DNA of 64,000 bases from Variimorphobacter saccharofermentans (GTDB lineage Bacteria > Bacillota > Clostridia > Lachnospirales > Lachnospiraceae): NCBI RefSeq assembly GCF_014174405.1, contig NZ_JACEGA010000001.1:2013001-2077000 (forward strand), read 5' to 3'. A model generated the notes under the pieces. That model did no database searches and had not been told where the DNA came from. It saw nothing but the letters and a program-made list of their open reading frames with translations. Positions 870 through 8,985 of this stretch are shown piece by piece. The position numbers and the translations under genes were made by a program. Within the stretch, counting starts at the first letter, position 1. Each line of letters begins with the position of its first letter.

Positions 870-1598
870 ATGCAGTTTAAAGATAAGGTTTATGTTATAA
901 CCGGAACCAATTCTGGAATAGGAAAAGCCTGTGCAACACAACTACTTGATAAGGAAGCTACTATAATTGGATTAGATTTCAAGGAAAGTACGATTAAACA
1001 TCCAAGCTATATCCACTTCATAGTTGATATTAGGAATGAAGAGAGGATATCTGAAATATTTAATGATATAGATTATAGATATAGTCGAATAGATGGACTA
1101 TGCAACTGTGCCGGTATATTTGCCAATGCAAAGCCATTCTATGAGTTAGATTCCGATGAATGGGATAATGTAATCAGAACGAATCTAACCGGAGCATTCT
1201 TAGTTTCAAAGCATGTGGCACGTAGGATGATAAAACAAAAAAATGGTAAAATCGTTCTTATAGGCTGCATTCGATCTAAAATATTTAGACCAAATATGGC
1301 GGATTATGCTGCATCCAAAGGGGGAATAGTAGCACTTACTGCGTCTATGGCTTTGGATTTAGCTCCTCATAATATAACAGTGAACAGTGTCGCTCCAGGG
1401 TTCACTTATACCGGTATGACTGCGAAATCTTTTGATAATCATGATATACGAAAATCCTCCGAGAACATCATACCTGTAGGGAGGATTGCCGAACCGGAAG
1501 ATATAGCAAAGGTAGTACTATTCCTTTTATCGGATTTATCAGATTATATCAATGGTGAAACAATTTATACTGATGGTGGTTTTATAATTTCAAAATAA
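870..1598 (+). CDS. Short-chain dehydrogenase/reductase (SDR) with Cys at the catalytic Ser position
   Basis: 242 residues, the usual size for a classical SDR oxidoreductase. The start at 870 is set by GGAGGAGC just upstream. An in-frame ATG-like start at 825 overlaps the promoter and is rejected. The Rossmann motif TGTNSGIG is at residues 11-18, NCAG near 79-82, the YxxxK pair is Tyr146/Lys150 (YAASK), and the C-terminal TDGGF is present. Counting back 13 residues from Tyr146, where FabG-type enzymes have the catalytic Ser, gives Cys133 (IGCIRS). The nearest Ser is residue 136. Activity may be altered or the substrate unusual. The gene sits directly upstream of a marR gene and is probably cotranscribed with it. 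The substrate cannot be predicted. Confidence 0.85.
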   Translation: MQFKDKVYVITGTNSGIGKACATQLLDKEATIIGLDFKESTIKHPSYIHFIVDIRNEERISEIFNDIDYRYSRIDGLCNCAGIFANAKPFYELDSDEWDNVIRTNLTGAFLVSKHVARRMIKQKNGKIVLIGCIRSKIFRPNMADYAASKGGIVALTASMALDLAPHNITVNSVAPGFTYTGMTAKSFDNHDIRKSSENIIPVGRIAEPEDIAKVVLFLLSDLSDYINGETIYTDGGFIISK

Positions 1599-1627: not shown

Positions 1628-2062
1628 ATGAATTACTCAGGAAGCGATTATTTGAGGGAATTATTAAGAATTTTGGTAAGAAGTCTAGGTATTCTTGAAA
1701 AAAATGATGTCAGCTGTTACGGAGTAACACTTGCACAATGTCATACTATTGTTGAAATTGGAAGAGCCCAGAAAATATCCCTGATAGATCTCGCTGATTT
1801 ACTGGGGTTGGATAAAAGTACAATGAGCAGAACGATTAATAACCTGGTCAATTTGAATTTAGTAAATAGAGAAACTGACTCAGATAATAGACGTTATATT
1901 TCAATACAATTAACGGATAAGGGAATTGAGGTGTTTCGAAATATTGAAGATAGCATGAATGATTATTATTCTAAAATATTCAATTCAATTGCAAGTGATA
2001 AAAGAGATAAAGTTTTAGAGAGTCTGGAGTTATTAGTAGCGGCTATAAAGGAAAATAAATAA
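1628..2062 (+). CDS. MarR-family transcriptional regulator
   Basis: 144 residues with the MarR winged-helix pattern: SLIDLADLLGLDKSTMSRTI forms the HTH, and DNRRYISIQLTDKG is the DxRxxxxxLTxxG wing. The ATG at 1628 is preceded by GAAAGGAGG. MarR proteins are dimeric repressors that respond to small ligands. The gene follows the SDR by 29 bp, and the promoter at 809-838 carries inverted repeats that could be its operator. The HgcA-like gene 111 bp downstream may be part of the same unit. Confidence 0.88.
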   Translation: MNYSGSDYLRELLRILVRSLGILEKNDVSCYGVTLAQCHTIVEIGRAQKISLIDLADLLGLDKSTMSRTINNLVNLNLVNRETDSDNRRYISIQLTDKGIEVFRNIEDSMNDYYSKIFNSIASDKRDKVLESLELLVAAIKENK

Positions 2063-2173
2063 CGATACCAGGCATATGAATTAATAGTATTCCTTACAGA
2101 CATAACTTGTGAGAAAAATGATTGTATTTGTAAAAAGGGTGGATAAAAAATTGTTGTGAAGGATGTGATGAAA

Positions 2174-2683
2174 ATGAGTAACGAGAAGACCTGTTGCTGC
2201 TCAGGCGATAGTTGCTGCAATACAGAAACTATTACACTATATGACAAAAATGATAAATGGGTAATAGATGAAATACATACTCCGAAAGGAATTGTGCCTG
2301 TGATTTCTACAAATCTTCACTTTAAAGATATACTAGGATCGTGGAAGGTGCGATGGGGTATTGGCAGAATGAATTATAAGATTAATCCGGGGCTTTATGC
2401 AATAGGTAAGCCTAATCATTCTTCTCCAGTATTGGTAAGTGCAAACTACAAGCTGACCTTTGATTCTGTAAGAAAAGAACTATCTGATCTGGATTGTTGG
2501 ATTCTGATACTTGACACAAAAGGAATTAATGTTTGGTGTGCTGCTGGCAAAGGCACATTCGGAACAGAGGAAATAATTAATCGTATATCAAAAATTAAGT
2601 TGTCAGAAATAGTATCTCACAGGAAATTGACTATGCCACAGTTAGGTGCACCTGGTGTTAGTGCTCACGAAGTGACAAATTAA
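2174..2683 (+). CDS. Truncated HgcA-like corrinoid protein (CdhD-type fold, no membrane domain)
   Basis: 169 residues. The core closely resembles HgcA, the corrinoid methyltransferase that makes methylmercury together with the ferredoxin HgcB. It contains WKVRWGIGRMNY, NPGLYAIGKP, SANYKL and the diagnostic cap-helix motif NVWCAAGK at residues 119-126, whose Cys122 would be the lower axial ligand to cobalt. It ends at GAPGVSAHEVTN. Known HgcA continues past AHEV with more of the corrinoid domain and several C-terminal membrane helices (about 330-340 residues in all), so roughly half is missing. The N terminus is cysteine-rich (CCC and CC within 15 residues). No hgcB ferredoxin gene is near. 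Starts at 2168 or 2156 are possible; AAGGA at 2159-2163 serves 2174 at a 10-base spacing. It is either a degenerate hgcA or a soluble paralogue of unknown role. Confidence 0.75.
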   Translation: MSNEKTCCCSGDSCCNTETITLYDKNDKWVIDEIHTPKGIVPVISTNLHFKDILGSWKVRWGIGRMNYKINPGLYAIGKPNHSSPVLVSANYKLTFDSVRKELSDLDCWILILDTKGINVWCAAGKGTFGTEEIINRISKIKLSEIVSHRKLTMPQLGAPGVSAHEVTN

Positions 2684-2726
2684 CATTTCGTTAAACTATT
2701 GTTTTGCGAATAGTACGAAGCATAAG

Positions 2727-2754
2727 AAAAACAGAGATTCTTCTAAAATCTCTG
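2727..2754 (-). terminator. Intrinsic terminator of the blaI-like gene
   Basis: Read on the minus strand, CAGAGATT and AATCTCTG (2754-2747 and 2739-2732) form an 8-bp stem followed by TTTTT (2731-2727). The left arm contains the last codons of the blaI-like gene. The hairpin also separates it from the convergent HgcA-like gene. Confidence 0.7.
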
Positions 2755-3114
2755 CTCTCCAATTATTCTTTGCAGTTCCATAATTTCTGCTTTTGATAAA
2801 TCTTGATTTTTTAAATATTCATTTAAAAATGTACTTAACGAACCATTATATAATTTGTTTAGTAAAACTTTTGTTTCGATGGCTTGAACTGTTCGTTTTG
2901 AAATTGCAGCTTTGCACATAAAACCAGGATCTTCACGTTTTACAGCACCTTTATCTATTAAGCGTTTAATAACTGTGTATGTGGTGTTTTTTTCCCAGCC
3001 GATATATTCCTTAATAATCTTAGAAATATCTTTTGCAGCCAATACCTTGTTTGACCATAACAATTCCATAATATTAAGTTCGCCTTCATGTAGCCGAATA
3101 TCTGGTAAAGCCAT
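2743..3114 (-). CDS. BlaI/MecI-family transcriptional repressor
   Basis: 123 residues with the BlaI/MecI winged helix: LHEGELNIMELLWS, then WEKNTTYTVIKRLIDKGAVKRE, the typical recognition helix and wing. A C-terminal dimerisation part (LYNGSLSTFLNEYL) follows. BlaI proteins bind TACA/TGTA dyads and are cleaved when a BlaR1 membrane sensor detects beta-lactam or another signal. No blaR1 or penicillinase lies beside this gene, so its signal is unclear. Two dyads, TCTACA-N2-TGTAGA, lie in the leader at 3220-3233 and 3456-3469, which suggests autoregulation. Start 3114 (MALPDIR) is preferred; a GTG at 3126 directly abuts the AAAGGG purine run. Confidence 0.85.
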   Translation of the reverse strand: MALPDIRLHEGELNIMELLWSNKVLAAKDISKIIKEYIGWEKNTTYTVIKRLIDKGAVKREDPGFMCKAAISKRTVQAIETKVLLNKLYNGSLSTFLNEYLKNQDLSKAEIMELQRIIGEQRF

Positions 3115-3219
3115 GTGTTCCCGCACCCCTTTGTATATATTCTTAATAACAAAAATAAATACCTACTGCATTGATTATCCTATCTTTCAATTCAGTATAA
3201 ACTCCCCATATATAACAAA

Positions 3220-3233
3220 TCTACATATGTAGA
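3220..3233. promoter_or_regulatory. BlaI-type operator (proximal)
   Basis: TCTACATATGTAGA is a perfect 14-bp palindrome 106 bp upstream of the blaI-like start. It contains the TACA-N2-TGTA core known for BlaI/MecI operators. On the minus strand a TATTAT/TATAAC-like -10 lies immediately upstream of it, so bound repressor would cover the transcription start. Confidence 0.65.
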
Positions 3234-3455
3234 ACGTTATAATACGCTATAAATAAAAGAACTATATGACTCACTATTTCATTATTAATAAACAAAATCA
3301 TTCATTAAATTTAAGTTTAGTTTAATAAAAAAACAATATATGGAAATTGAATTAATTAGCCATAAAAAATGATATAGTCTAAAAATATAATAAAATCAGC
3401 ATCTTACCGCTGTAGAATGAATTGATGCCATCTAAAACATATCACATTAATAATA

Positions 3456-3469
3456 TCTACACATGTAGA
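3456..3469. promoter_or_regulatory. BlaI-type operator (distal)
   Basis: TCTACACATGTAGA has the same TCTACA-N2-TGTAGA arms as the operator at 3220-3233. On the minus strand a TTGACA (around 3509-3514) with a TAGTAT-like -10 lies just upstream, giving a plausible second, distal promoter for the blaI-like gene. The remaining bases of the 462-bp gap (3115-3576) are AT-rich and I see no gene in them. Confidence 0.6.
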
Positions 3470-3576
3470 CAAAGTCCGTATTTCTATACTATTATAATAG
3501 AACAGATTTGTCAACTGTTTATTTACAATTTCGTAAGAAAAAAGTAACATTTTAACTATTTTCTTAATACTTATTA

Positions 3577-4872
3577 CTATATACAATACACTGCATAATA
3601 AGGAACGTACTTAATTTGATTGGAAAAATCAAAGTTTCTGGATGATATTTTAATTGCATATGGGAAGTCATAGCTTTGCTTCAATACGCTGATGCTTTTT
3701 GACCGTGTATTATCACCCTCGAATACTTCGATAGGAAGAAAACCGAATTCTTTCTGAACAACAAAATCCAGCTTAGCCATGGAAGCTGATTCCCAGAAAG
3801 CAAATAACATATTTTTTGCCTGAAGTGCTTGAGCTACATAATTTTCATATAAAGCTTTATTGCTTTTTACTTTGATGCCTGCTCTTTGCTCTTCTATCAT
3901 TTTGGTATGTAATAGACCAGTATCTGAAAAATATAATTTAAAATTTGTATTCTGATCAATATGCTGTAATAACTCAGATAATCCATCATCGCTAAAAGCT
4001 GTGAGTTGCTCTGTGTTAATACGATTACATTTGATGACGTAATTACCTTCCGTCAACCTACGTATTGCATCCTTATACATGGCATGAGTGGTGCCCTTTC
4101 GGATGAGTTTATACTGAAACTTCTTATTTTCTTTCATAAGCTGCAATGCTAAGCTGTCCAATACCTGGTTCATTTTTAAAGCTTCACTGTCCGGATTATC
4201 CTTCTTAATATAGTCGTGATAGGACCCGATGAGAAAATTATGCTGTTCCGATATATTTATATCAGAGAATAAGTTCAGGTATTCATTTACGATTCCAGGC
4301 ATTCCACCAATTTTCATATATAGCTGATGGAGTGATAACAATTCCTTATGTACTATTTCCGGTATTTTTTTATTACTATGAAAATGATTACTGATTGTTT
4401 CAATGTACCACTCATTTCCGATGGCTCTCAGAAATTCATCAAATTCTAAAGGATAAACCGTAAGCTTTCTAATATTAATTGATCTGTTATCAGATAATGG
4501 TTTACTCGAAATTAATATGATATACGGGAAAATGCTTTGAAACATTGGGTGATTTGTTATACTCAATGAAGCAGAACCGACAAAGCTTACTTCATCTAAT
4601 ATTAAGATACGTTCTTGTGAAGAAATCTCCGGGTCTATTTTTACATAGCTTAAACACAGTTCTGATAGATTGTCCGGATTCCATGCTTCAAACATTCGAA
4701 TGGCTTCCTGATTGTGTTCGAAATTAATGTATAGAATATCTTTAAAAAAGGCCTTTGCAAAATCATATGCCAGATATGTCTTGCCCACGCCTTTTACTCC
4801 TGTTAATAGAATTGGTCCGCTATTGTTACTGTTTTTCCATTGTATTAATTCATCAATCAGTTTTCTTTTCAA
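3577..4872 (-). CDS. AAA ATPase with C-terminal DUF4143 nuclease-like domain
   Basis: 431 residues in the AAA_14-DUF4143 layout. Walker A GVKGVGKT is at residues 25-32 and Walker B ILILDE is near 89-94. The C-terminal third (KLDFVVQKEFGFLPIEV followed by a Lys-rich strand) looks like the restriction-endonuclease-like fold seen in DUF4143 proteins. This family is common in anaerobes and archaea, often in accessory DNA, and its role is not established. It starts 6 bp after the rluD stop codon, so it is probably transcribed as the last gene of that string. The gene is unusual in this otherwise conserved region and may be a late addition. Confidence 0.8.
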   Translation of the reverse strand: MKRKLIDELIQWKNSNNSGPILLTGVKGVGKTYLAYDFAKAFFKDILYINFEHNQEAIRMFEAWNPDNLSELCLSYVKIDPEISSQERILILDEVSFVGSASLSITNHPMFQSIFPYIILISSKPLSDNRSINIRKLTVYPLEFDEFLRAIGNEWYIETISNHFHSNKKIPEIVHKELLSLHQLYMKIGGMPGIVNEYLNLFSDINISEQHNFLIGSYHDYIKKDNPDSEALKMNQVLDSLALQLMKENKKFQYKLIRKGTTHAMYKDAIRRLTEGNYVIKCNRINTEQLTAFSDDGLSELLQHIDQNTNFKLYFSDTGLLHTKMIEEQRAGIKVKSNKALYENYVAQALQAKNMLFAFWESASMAKLDFVVQKEFGFLPIEVFEGDNTRSKSISVLKQSYDFPYAIKISSRNFDFSNQIKYVPYYAVYCI

Positions 4873-4878
4873 CGATGG

Positions 4879-5847
4879 TTACCCCTTATGTCTTAATTTC
4901 TCAAGTAAATCAACAAAGTACTCCGGTAAAGGTGCTGAGAATTCAACATACTTTTCTGTGGTCGGATGAATAAAGCCTAAGACGCCTGCATGTAAGGCTT
5001 GACCCTCCAAATGAAAAGGATCCTTTGCGGGACCATATACCGTATCACCCAGAAGAGGATGATGAATGCTAGCCATATGAACCCTAATTTGATGGGTACG
5101 TCCTGTCTCTAGGGAGCATTCAATATAAGCATACTGCTTCAGGTTTTCTAATACCCGATAATTGGTCGCTGATGATTTCCCGTTTTTATAGTTTACAGCC
5201 ATTTTCTTACGATCCTTTGGATCTCTTCCAATGGGAGCTTCTACTCTTCCGCTTTCTTCCTTCATGGCATGGTACACCAATGCTTGATATTTTCGTGTGA
5301 TAGAATGAATCTTAAGCTGATCGGCAATAAACTGATGTGCTTTGTCATTTTTACAGGCTACTATAACACCAGTCGTATCACGGTCAATCCGGTGGACAAT
5401 ACCCGGCCTCAGAATTCCATTAATTCCGGAAAGTTCTCCCTTACAATGATATAACAAAGCATTAACTAATGTTCCTGATGTATGTCCTGCAGCAGGATGA
5501 ACAACAAGTCCTTTTTGCTTATTTATAATTATTATATCTTTATCCTCATAAATAATATCAAGTGGAAGCTCTTCTGGGACGATTTCAGCCTCTTTTGGCT
5601 CGGGAAGGTAAATTGTAATGCTTGAACCGGTTTTTACCTTAGAATTCGATTTTACGGGCTTATCATCCATTAAAATCATATGATCGTCAATCAGCTTTTG
5701 AATATAGCTTCTTGATAAATTATTCTGTATACCGGATAGAAACCGGTCAATACGTATTCCGTTATATTCTTCATCAACAATAAATTCTAAGTTTTGATCA
5801 TCCTTATTATCAAAACTTTCCTCAAGCTCAAACATTTCCTCTTCCAT
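4879..5847 (-). CDS. rluD: RluD-family 23S rRNA pseudouridine synthase
   Basis: 322 residues. An S4 RNA-binding domain (about residues 31-80, IRIDRFLSGIQNNLSRSYI) precedes the RluA/RluD catalytic domain. Motif II is HRIDRDTTG with catalytic Asp155, and RTHQIRVHMASIHHPLLGD lies in the C-terminal half. Enzymes of this family convert uridines of 23S rRNA helix 69 or similar sites to pseudouridine. An acidic N-terminal extension of about 28 residues precedes S4. The gene follows lspA by 20 bp, the common lspA-rluD pairing of Firmicutes. The exact rRNA target is not determined by sequence alone. Confidence 0.93.
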   Translation of the reverse strand: MEEEMFELEESFDNKDDQNLEFIVDEEYNGIRIDRFLSGIQNNLSRSYIQKLIDDHMILMDDKPVKSNSKVKTGSSITIYLPEPKEAEIVPEELPLDIIYEDKDIIIINKQKGLVVHPAAGHTSGTLVNALLYHCKGELSGINGILRPGIVHRIDRDTTGVIVACKNDKAHQFIADQLKIHSITRKYQALVYHAMKEESGRVEAPIGRDPKDRKKMAVNYKNGKSSATNYRVLENLKQYAYIECSLETGRTHQIRVHMASIHHPLLGDTVYGPAKDPFHLEGQALHAGVLGFIHPTTEKYVEFSAPLPEYFVDLLEKLRHKG

Positions 5848-5867
5848 TAAGTTAATTCCTTTCCCCT

Positions 5868-6380
5868 TTATTTTGGGTCATCCTTTTTTCTTCGAGGAAT
5901 CAGTTTCTCTAAGAATGAGAAATCGTCATCCTTATAATAAAATACTACCAGGATAAACAGAAGGATGCAGGATACGGTTAAATAACTATCCGCTATATTA
6001 AATAACGGAAAATTAATCAATTCAAAATAAATAAAATCCACCACATATCCTAAATAAAAACGATCAATCAGATTACCTACCGCACCGGCTATTATAAACA
6101 CTGCGAGTATCTGAACTGGTACGAATTTCTTTGCTTTCGGAATTTTAAAATACAGGTATATAAGAAATATCAATATTATAAGAGTAAGGATTCGAAGGAA
6201 TGCAATCTTTCCACTCATAATTCCCCAGACTGCACCGGTATTCGTATGGTATTGCAGACTTAATACATCCGGAATTAGCCGGATTGGTTCGTTCAATTCA
6301 GTCCGAATCAGGTATTTCGATAATTGATCAATACCTACTAGGATTATAAAATATATAAAATGTCTAATTCTCTGTTTCAT
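5868..6380 (-). CDS. lspA: Lipoprotein signal peptidase (signal peptidase II)
   Basis: 170 residues with four predicted membrane helices. The two catalytic aspartates are visible: Asp115 in GYVVDFIYF and Asp131 in FNIADSYL, with GNLIDR just before. LspA is the membrane aspartyl protease that removes signal peptides from diacylglyceryl-modified prolipoproteins. A Lys/Asp-rich cytoplasmic tail ([14 protein letters not shown]) ends the protein. It lies between aroB and rluD on the same strand with gaps of 20-30 bp. Confidence 0.96.
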
Positions 6381-6410
6381 ACGTACCCTCCATTTTATGT
6401 GTTGACATAA

Positions 6411-7496
6411 CTATTTTAATACGGACTGAATGGCATTCATCATTTCTGATTTTGACACAGTAGGATCAATCACAGCATTTCCGATTCCTTTTATTAAAAT
6501 AAAACGGATTTTATCGGAATCCATTTTTTTATCCAGCTTCGTAACTTCATAAATTTCTTCAGCGGATAAGCCTGATACATTAACGGGTTGATGGTAACGT
6601 CCTAATGCCTCAAGAGTATTCTGATACTCTTCTTCCGTAATATAACCACGCTCCTTCGATAAAAAGGCTGCAGCTGAGATACCGATGGATACACATTCGC
6701 CATGCAGTAATGAAAAATACTTAAGCTTCTCAATTGCATGTCCTATTGTATGACCTAGATTTAACAGAGCCCGTTCTCCTTTTTCTTTCGGATCGTTTTC
6801 CACAACTACTTTTTTTATCAGACAACTACGATAAATCATTTCCTTGATAGTTGAAAAGGATTTGGAACTGATTTCTTCAACATGATCCTGTAACCAAATA
6901 AAATAATTCTTATCCTTAATTAAGCCATGCTTCAGGATTTCTCCCATCCCTGAAAAGTATTCAGCCTTTGGTAAGGTCTGAAGTACGTTTAAGTTCATAT
7001 AAACTAGAGATGGCTGGTGGAAAGCGCCAACCATATTCTTATATGCTTTAAAATCTACACCCGTTTTTCCTCCGATACTGGAGTCCACCATGGATAATAG
7101 AGATGTGGGGACTTGAATAAATCGTATTCCACGGAGATATGTAGCTGCGACAAAACCAGTTAAATCACCTACTACGCCACCGCCAAGTGCAATTAATACG
7201 TCATTTCGATCAAAGCTTTTAGAGATCAGCTCTTCATAACATAGGCTTACGGTATCCAAATTCTTACTTTTCTCACCGGCTGCAAATGTATATACATGAA
7301 CAGATTTTGCAATTGGTGCTAATTCCTTATAGAGTTCATCGGCATAAAAGGATCCTACATTACTATCTGTAATAATCATAATCTTACGGTTTTCCATACC
7401 AAGATTTCGGATGGAATCCGTCAACTTACCAAAATCCGGTTCAAGTTTAATATCATAGGAAGGTTTTCCATCATAAAGTACTGTAAGTGTATTCAT
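6411..7496 (-). CDS. aroB: 3-dehydroquinate synthase
   Basis: 361 residues from the ATG at 7496 (MNTLTVLYDG). An upstream in-frame start at 7517 would add seven unlikely residues. NAD-binding GGGVVGDLTGFVAATYLRG, the metal/substrate motif VPTSLLSMVDSSIGGKTGVD, and NLGHTIGHAIE (Zn-binding His) are all present. The enzyme closes DAHP to 3-dehydroquinate in the shikimate pathway. No other aro gene is adjacent. Here it sits between ylmH and lspA, the place where divIVA is found in many Firmicutes clusters. Confidence 0.95.
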   Translation of the reverse strand: MNTLTVLYDGKPSYDIKLEPDFGKLTDSIRNLGMENRKIMIITDSNVGSFYADELYKELAPIAKSVHVYTFAAGEKSKNLDTVSLCYEELISKSFDRNDVLIALGGGVVGDLTGFVAATYLRGIRFIQVPTSLLSMVDSSIGGKTGVDFKAYKNMVGAFHQPSLVYMNLNVLQTLPKAEYFSGMGEILKHGLIKDKNYFIWLQDHVEEISSKSFSTIKEMIYRSCLIKKVVVENDPKEKGERALLNLGHTIGHAIEKLKYFSLLHGECVSIGISAAAFLSKERGYITEEEYQNTLEALGRYHQPVNVSGLSAEEIYEVTKLDKKMDSDKIRFILIKGIGNAVIDPTVSKSEMMNAIQSVLK

Positions 7497-7634
7497 ATAA
7501 AAAATGCACAACCACATCGAAAAAACGAGGTTATGCCATCCTCCTTATCTATTCATTTCATCTATAGGATCAATGCATTCGGTTAGAATTGCACATAATC
7601 ATATTATGGTAAATATCATGGTTTCATTGATAGA

Positions 7635-8408
7635 CTAAGAATAAATCAGCAATTTTACACTGTATCTACCTTTTTTCGTCTGATATGTGGTTCCAGTGTA
7701 GATAAATTTCCCATAACCGCGAACGGATACAATATCATTTTCTTTTAGAGTATAACTATTCGACGTAATAATCTTACCGCCAACTGATACCTTACCGCCT
7801 TCAATCAGTCCGGATAAACTGCTTCTGGAACCATGAAATGCAACAGAAAGCACACTATCCAGTCGAACAGAGGTAACAGTTCCGATCACCTCTTTGAACT
7901 TGGGCTTATAATCAAACTCCTGTATCGTAATGATCTGAGTTGTCACATTCGTATGCTTGACACGGGACAACTGTTCAGCAATAAAGGAACTGATTCCGGA
8001 ATGGCAAAATAGAAAACCCCCATTCTCATTAACAAGAATATCTCCAAGCTTACTACGATCTATGCCAAGATTAAGGATTGCACCCAGAAAGTCCCGATGA
8101 TTTAATTTATCACTAAATTTGATGTTTACTGGAGTAATCTTGATACAGTTTATAGGATATTCAATTTCACTTTCCTCAGAGATAGCTTCATTTCCGCAAA
8201 AACAAAGTATTTTTCTTTCGGCATCTTGAAATCCCCCAAAAGTAAAATACTTTATCCTTGGTAATTCATATTTGAGGTTTAAAAATATGGTCTGTTCATT
8301 TAAGTTCAAAAAATCCGAGTATAAACAACATCCGCGTAAATCTGCTGTATTTGCTAAATCTGATAAGCGTTTACGAAAAATTAGCTCTTCTTTCTCTTGT
8401 TTCATCAT
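7635..8408 (-). CDS. ylmH: YlmH-type S4-domain RNA-binding protein
   Basis: 258 residues. The C-terminal S4 domain (RLDSVLSVAFHGSRSSLSGL through VSVRGYGKF) and the YlmH N-terminal domain are recognisable. In Bacillus, YlmH is a ribosome-associated quality-control factor. Genes of this family sit in the sepF cluster near ftsZ-linked genes. The ATG at 8408 lies four bases after the sepF stop codon, suggesting translational coupling. An upstream frame extension to 8450 overlaps sepF and is not needed. Confidence 0.9.
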   Translation of the reverse strand: MMKQEKEELIFRKRLSDLANTADLRGCCLYSDFLNLNEQTIFLNLKYELPRIKYFTFGGFQDAERKILCFCGNEAISEESEIEYPINCIKITPVNIKFSDKLNHRDFLGAILNLGIDRSKLGDILVNENGGFLFCHSGISSFIAEQLSRVKHTNVTTQIITIQEFDYKPKFKEVIGTVTSVRLDSVLSVAFHGSRSSLSGLIEGGKVSVGGKIITSNSYTLKENDIVSVRGYGKFIYTGTTYQTKKGRYSVKLLIYS

Positions 8409-8412
8409 ATGC

Positions 8413-8985
8413 TTAGAATTTAGATTGGAATGTCGGCGGCTCAAAACCATTCTGCTGTATCATATCTAAATAATCTCCTGAAATATCAACGGTATCTGGA
8501 GATACGATAAAGATACAATTTGAGATTCGATGTAATTTACCGTTAATGGCATAAACAGAGCCTGAAATAAAATCCATGGTTCGTTGTGCTAATTTGTCAT
8601 CAAAACCTTCCAAATTAATCACGGTTGCCCTTCCGGTTAAGAGCATGTCACATATTTCTTGAGAGTCTTCAAAGGATGTAGGTTTCATGATGCATACTTC
8701 AAGCCCCTTAGGGGTTGTTCGGATAGGTACAACCTTATTTGCTGTACTTCGTTCCATTTTTGGCATCCTTTCCTTTCTTGATTCGCTTGCAGTCTGCACT
8801 GGCGGAGCAGCAAACGCCTGAGTATTCATAGCTTCTTCGTATCTTTCCTGTTTCGCTTCACGTTTTTCTGCGCGTTTTGCCTTCTTTCTCTCTTTCTCAG
8901 TTTCCTCTTGCAAATACTCTTCATATTCTTCATCTTCGTCTTCGGTTAAATGCATAGAGTTTAAAAAGTTTTTTAATATAGACAT
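8413..8985 (-). CDS. sepF: Cell division protein SepF
   Basis: 190 residues. The C-terminal DUF552/SepF core is clear: VCIMKPTSFEDSQEICDML, VINLEGFDDKLAQRTMDFISG, and a final hydrophobic segment with GDYLDMI. The first 85 residues form an amphipathic N terminus (MSILKNFLNSM), which anchors SepF to membrane, and then a highly charged Glu/Lys/Arg linker. SepF polymerises and bundles FtsZ at the division septum. It follows yggS by 19 bp and precedes ylmH, the conserved ylmE-sepF-ylmH order. ylmG and divIVA are not between them here. Confidence 0.95.
   Translation of the reverse strand: MSILKNFLNSMHLTEDEDEEYEEYLQEETEKERKKAKRAEKREAKQERYEEAMNTQAFAAPPVQTASESRKERMPKMERSTANKVVPIRTTPKGLEVCIMKPTSFEDSQEICDMLLTGRATVINLEGFDDKLAQRTMDFISGSVYAINGKLHRISNCIFIVSPDTVDISGDYLDMIQQNGFEPPTFQSKF

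Follow-up and report, generated by a model that had tools for sequence, protein, structure and literature searches.

Excerpts from the literature attribute the patchy distribution of hgcAB to gene transfer and loss (PMC7862947), link ars genes including arsR to hgcAB (PMC7438021, PMC10349881), and describe a MarR-family gene upstream of hgcA in two species (PMC10349881). According to an excerpt of PMC7305189, ND132 HgcA no longer supports methylation when a stop codon is placed after residue 166 or 187, and the CFeSP is described there as having no cap cysteine. The titles and abstract openings of the literature on hgcA loss, transfer, pseudogenes and regulators mention no truncated hgcA remnant. 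Here we describe a stretch of bacterial DNA of 64 kb (the window; positions refer to it unless noted otherwise) with an hgcA-like fragment which is very probably the remnant of a mercury-methylation island, with hgcA cut down and its back half as well as hgcB gone.

Results

The hgcA fragment and its missing parts

The fragment is located at 2174..2683 on the + strand and consists of the N-terminal tail and most of the corrinoid-binding domain, encoded by 169 codons followed by a TAA. The program-listed open reading frame extends from a GTG (2156..2683, 175 aa), but we took the ATG at 2174 as the start because it is aligned with the starts of the full-length relatives. The original prediction of an HgcA-like protein with the cap helix NVWCAAGK was borne out by a profile search, which matched the fragment to positions 1-128 of the 325 of the NCBI HgcA model NF040863 (E 3.7e-70; 236.7 bits, which is below the curated cut-off of 275 bits), and by a match to Pfam CdhD (E 5.8e-15). 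The motif is intact, with the cap cysteine at residue 122, and this cobalt-liganding residue is invariant in both alignments of relatives. The scores were 135.5 bits with the HgcAB-like fusion model and 71.4 bits with the CFeSP gamma model. Identity with the large subunit of CFeSP was rejected, because that match covers only residues 68-159 of the fragment, not the full protein, and falls 165 bits short of the one with the HgcA model.

The N terminus contains the two CC clusters that had been pointed out beforehand, but their description as an oddity did not hold: they are common among the closest relatives, including the full-length proteins of L008, L009, L010, L012, L013, L014 and L016, and are therefore a trait of this HgcA group and not of the short form. 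Of the 80 related loci compared (the top 80 out of 564 confirmed places), L030 (860-994) has the most cysteines in the hgcA N terminus, with 10 among the first 45 residues, including four CC pairs.

The frame ends with ...AHEVTN, and the predicted truncation just after AHEV was confirmed in the genome (96.43% complete, 4 contigs), where an HgcA-type match occurs at the site of the fragment only. Queried with a full-length HgcA, this genome gave a match to the first 170 residues only and none to the portion encoded by the 3' half of hgcA. Besides the fragment, the Pfam CdhD model picked up a portion of an 831-codon frame (27.1 bits vs. a cut-off of 24.8), which we take to be probably MetH. A simple frameshift after AHEV, as considered in the original prediction, was rejected, since no further hgcA followed in the three frames read and none was detected at other places of the genome; hgcA is instead broken off at a sharp junction. 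The HgcB model yielded no match over its cut-off in the genome at its 96.43% completeness (best match 49.1 vs. 99 bits), so the search for an hgcB elsewhere in the genome came out negative, and none of its 35 matches at E ≤ 0.1 lies within the window, in agreement with the earlier statement that no ferredoxin gene is near. Below-cut-off matches to this model were also obtained in 14 of 14 control genomes and therefore represent ordinary ferredoxin motifs.

According to a structural model of the full-length protein of L015, a strand (residues 174-177) and a helix (182-190) follow past the break, while the fragment stops at residue 169; its corrinoid-binding Rossmann domain is thus predicted to be incomplete, with the last strand and helix gone, and the long C-terminal helices of the full HgcA model are absent as well. 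The five-helix C-terminal transmembrane domain is missing, with the frame stopping at 2683 and no further part found in the genome with the full-length query. Judging from the spacing to the cap cysteine, the fragment would end around residue 140 of ND132 HgcA, earlier than both tested stops. The remnant can code for no more than a partial, soluble portion of the corrinoid domain and, because it comes with neither a membrane domain nor HgcB, is expected to be devoid of mercury methylation activity.

Full-length relatives

Among 33 other genomes of the same genus, three contain hgcA in open frames of 386-389 codons (G028, G026 and G005), to which the fragment is 81%, 81% and 75% identical, respectively, and three further ones gave weak matches (in the E 1e-4 range) in frames of 450-458 codons that are CFeSP-like by length. 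The arsR gene overlaps the hgcA start in G028 and G026 and ends just before hgcA in G005; its products in G026 and G028 are recognised by ArsR/SmtB models. An entire hgcB follows hgcA in G026 (132.4 bits vs. the cut-off of 99) and G005, and the contig of G028 breaks off just past the hgcB start. The relative L003 reaches 496.2 bits with NF040863 over profile positions 1-324. Across 397 evenly sampled genomes of the family, matches were limited to the genome with the fragment, G005 and a weak one in a 454-codon frame; in this search and in another one of 99 genomes, which both included the fragment's own genome, all other strong matches are full length. A tree groups the fragment with the protein record P0001 (see below), adjoining G026 and G005, at a support of 90/85, which is below the starred level of that tree.

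The best 80 of the 564 loci include those of G028 (L013), G026 (L015) and G005 (L030), each locus being identical over hgcA to the genome it stands for. In this set, 73 reach a stop codon at 317 or more amino acids from the match start, six leave the contig, and one (L018) has an in-frame TAG after SHRK, the remaining hgcA being open; none ends at AHEV. The TAG of L018, a Peptococcaceae MAG, is located at about 2728, where it replaces a TTG of the near relative L016, and an hgcB-like frame lies downstream. A CxxCxxCxxxCP ferredoxin motif occurs within 1.5 kb downstream of hgcA in 73 of the 80 loci. Acetivibrio mesophilus has two hgcA loci (L008 and L010) about 107 kb apart on one contig, each of them followed by such a motif.

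Short protein records and constraint on the remaining codons

Homologues with the same end are absent from these 80 genome loci; ends at or near this point do occur among protein records, which fit cut pieces as well as real short genes. The representative of the protein cluster which holds the window's protein, P0001, has the same last residue and differs in one residue; because its longest contig has 133,653 bases, its assembly must be a different one, which may belong to a close strain. This distinct sequence with an identical end, together with the position of the fragment inside a contig of 4.15 Mb, both flanks of which match neighbours known from other genomes, makes an assembly or sequencing artefact extremely improbable, even if chimaera-like records occur: the last 82 residues of P0002 match the antisense of the hgcA 3' region (70% in L003), pointing to an inversion or a chimaera.

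Of the best 120 protein hits (out of 1451), 45 end within 45 residues past the AHEV column, some of them within three, and the ends of the short records near AHEV differ (P0069, P0077, P0086, P0063, P0113, P0028, P0116 and others). P0069, for example, is 52% identical and ends with ...AHEVRS, two residues past AHEV, and P0003 and P0012 both end with ...SHRKIKLMFP, before LPQLGAPG, P0012 appearing to be internally frameshifted. The protein search admitted only lengths of 0.55-1.75 times that of the query, which kept full-length HgcA out and favoured pieces. Because of these length limits, and since many short hits are located on contigs of 1-4 kb or are labelled 'partial', the short HgcA-like records, including the metagenome-derived ones, are probably mostly cut pieces.

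The fragment has one unusual residue in 56 conserved columns, compared to 0-7 in the 80 others. The ratios of nonsynonymous to synonymous changes for the window vs. L015 were 8:20 vs. 10.5:18.5 with L030 as the outgroup, 9:18 vs. 3:11 with L013, 9:19 vs. 7:12 with L008, and 8:18 vs. 7.5:14.5 with L010. Where all four outgroups agreed, 5:7 changes in the window stand against 1:5 in L015, which are too few to judge. Relaxed constraint, seen as a consistent nonsynonymous excess over L015, was therefore not clearly apparent with the four outgroups, in a test that is weak because of the high dS values (0.66-1.96 for pairs with the window). The normal-looking codons fit a recent loss and equally a kept function.

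These data bear on the proposal that the protein is a soluble corrinoid relative with another role, i.e., a functional short form of HgcA encoded behind the MarR gene, which might bind corrinoid or metal or transfer methyl groups to another acceptor. It could draw on the retained cap cysteine and most of the conserved residues, the lack of a clear nonsynonymous excess, the open MarR frame, the identical end of P0001 and the few metagenome records of other lineages with an end at AHEV or close to it (P0069, for instance). A recent truncation, however, gives the same picture at the residue level, the end is shared by none of the 80 related genome loci (best 80 of 564), the corrinoid domain is modelled without its last strand and helix, and the fragment meets the flank of a BlaI-like gene at a sharp junction next to a broken arsR (see below). 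From its sequence, we regard a functional short form as very unlikely.

The upstream flank

Between the MarR gene and the hgcA fragment of the window, the DNA from about 2078 onwards can be aligned to the last part of arsR in G026 and G005. The arsR 3'-end remnant (2078..2181, + strand) was recognised from its translations and from the alignment with arsR-hgcA of L015 and others. It reads FLTDITCEKNDCICKKGG before a stop codon, and CEGCDENE before a stop codon in another frame, which shows that the front of arsR is lost and that its tail has a broken frame. At 2174-2181, one can still recognise where the end of arsR overlapped the start of hgcA.

The preceding gene for a MarR-family regulator (1628..2062, + strand; Pfam MarR) has an open frame with its stop codon at 2060-2062. 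Because the start region of the fragment is intact behind this open gene, the fragment may be expressed. By tblastn, at least 16 of the 80 related loci have a MarR relative ending no more than 0.5 kb upstream of hgcA, a lower bound because some loci have short flanks. Further upstream follows a gene for an SDR oxidoreductase (870..1598, + strand; Pfam adh_short_C2), and two neighbouring small DUF2087 genes lie upstream of it at 214-754. Analysis by tblastn, blastn and open reading frames revealed the order SDR (64% identical), MarR (53%), arsR, hgcA and hgcB in locus L008 of A. mesophilus, with a gene after hgcB that we named ArsC-like by eye. The shared SDR-MarR order indicates that the window retains the 5' flank of an hgc island.

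The junction and the adjoining palindrome

The junction between hgcA and the BlaI flank was placed at 2677..2680 by the ends of blastn alignments. The alignments with hgcA of L015 and L003 stop at 2679, and those with the BlaI-like gene and its 3' flank begin at 2677 (L099), 2680 (L100) or 2687 (L103), and at 2722 or later in the other loci. The gene for this BlaI/MecI-type repressor (2743..3126, - strand; Pfam Penicillinase_R) represents the conserved side of the junction and was matched at ≥80% identity in 29 of 34 genus genomes (including the fragment's own; one match was partial). To the left, about 15 kb (2000575-2015683 of the genome) have no counterpart in the compared stretches of G006 and G022, which match the genome on both sides of this segment; the fragment therefore lies in a variable region.

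The first part of the BlaI-side flank is a palindrome (2683..2714; 14-bp arms, 4-bp spacer), so the junction adjoins it. It is present as a single copy in the genome and was found with up to three mismatches in 21 of the 34 genus genomes, in one place each except for two in G029; at this threshold, there was no match in the other 13, including four of the 14 of best quality. A genome-wide repeat was rejected on the basis of the single place in 20 of the 21 carriers. In 15 carriers, the palindrome lies downstream of the BlaI-like gene on the same contig, and in the other six, it is on a separate contig. The distance to the BlaI-like gene is 31-33 bp in the window, G015, G027 and G029 (on two contigs) and ranges from 389 bp to 12.8 kb in eleven other genus genomes. 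In L135 (G004, another species), the interval contains an arsenic-resistance-like cluster (2401-8809), the genes of which were named by eye as ArsC-like, ArsR, transporter, and ArsD- and ArsA-like.

The palindrome coincides with a switch in GC skew and gene strand. To its left, the GC skew is +0.151 over 19.7 kb and all frames of at least 120 codons are on the + strand; to its right, the skew is -0.117 to -0.170 in four stretches and nearly all frames are on the - strand. Samples over the chromosome were positive in nine of ten cases to the left and negative in ten of ten to the right, and those of the one-contig genome G006 were positive in seven of seven and negative in seven of seven, respectively. 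The coincidence is not exact throughout the genus: the strand switch is located some 6 kb beyond the palindrome in G015, and genes are on both strands after the palindrome in G022 and G006. An excerpt of PMC3025954 names single occurrence, a position near the skew shift and a palindromic structure as marks for finding dif sites. The palindrome agrees with these marks in the genome with the fragment and in G006, and we regard it as a dif-like candidate and possibly a non-canonical dif site of the genus. A canonical 28-bp XerC/XerD dif sequence, that of B. subtilis, gave no match with fewer than nine mismatches in 81 kb around the palindrome and none with up to three mismatches anywhere in the genome or in G006. 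The predicted DNA folding of the palindrome stretch is not exceptional (z -1.79).

This setting raises an alternative origin of the junction, in which an already truncated piece, together with the SDR and MarR genes, was inserted beside the palindrome, e.g., by an element using Xer-type recombination. It overlaps with our preferred explanation, as the fragment is a remnant in both. The ~15-kb segment without counterpart would agree with an insertion, as would the sequences of 389 bp to 12.8 kb that other genus members hold on the other side of the palindrome, and the left arm of the palindrome, which departs from the common form, as it also does in G022. An insertion is nevertheless unlikely, because a search of the genome detected the palindrome only once, the 19.7 kb on its left side contain no half-site with fewer than two mismatches (and one with two, at 2009368 of the genome), and hgcA breaks off at the palindrome's outer edge rather than at its centre.

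Discussion

The homology to hgcA, the missing parts, the arsR tail, the neighbouring genes, the sharp junction and the strand switch can all be read directly from the DNA. The earlier suggestion of a decaying hgcA has thus gained substance from the full-length genes of genus mates, the frame-broken arsR tail, the sharp junction and the failure to find hgcB or the hgcA 3' half. The fragment is most likely a gene fossil and not a new enzyme, namely the hgcA fossil of an arsR-hgcA-hgcB island, in a position that is most likely the replication terminus.

We propose that an ancestor would have carried the genes in the order SDR-MarR-arsR-hgcA-hgcB close to the replication terminus. The front of arsR would have been lost on one side and, on the other, the whole stretch that began with codon 170 of hgcA, included hgcB and reached the palindrome's outer edge by the BlaI-like gene. 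We infer that the junction was made by a deletion and not by insertion of a fragment, and the order and mechanism of the losses are deduced in the same way. It is tempting to view the palindrome by the BlaI-like gene as a recurrent landing and breakage site for metal-related islands (hgc, ars) in this genus, where Xer-type or terminus-linked recombination truncated hgcA, but we consider this quite doubtful; if true, it would tie the loss of mercury methylation in this genome to the replication terminus.

The loss of hgcA is directly readable in the DNA at this locus, where the break can be seen along with the remnant and the tail of arsR. A survey relying on the N-terminal region of hgcA would miscount the genome as that of a methylator, in spite of the missing membrane domain and HgcB, and should require the 3' half of hgcA and hgcB.

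Compared to known systems, the fragment resembles HgcA (NF040863; model entry 9a0b) in the sequence and fold of its corrinoid domain as far as AHEV, including the cap cysteine, and it shares the cysteine-rich N-terminal tail with close HgcA proteins of Bacillota. It differs from HgcA in scoring below the cut-off, in breaking off before the corrinoid domain is complete, and in having neither membrane helices nor HgcB. The large subunit of CFeSP (PRK04165; 4djd_C, 2h9a_A) is more distant, with 71.4 bits against 236.7 for HgcA, and contains further domains. The L008 locus of A. mesophilus has a gene order like that of the window on the 5' side, but unlike in the window, arsR (111 aa), hgcA (365 aa) and hgcB (104 aa) are all open to their ends, as are all five genes of that locus.
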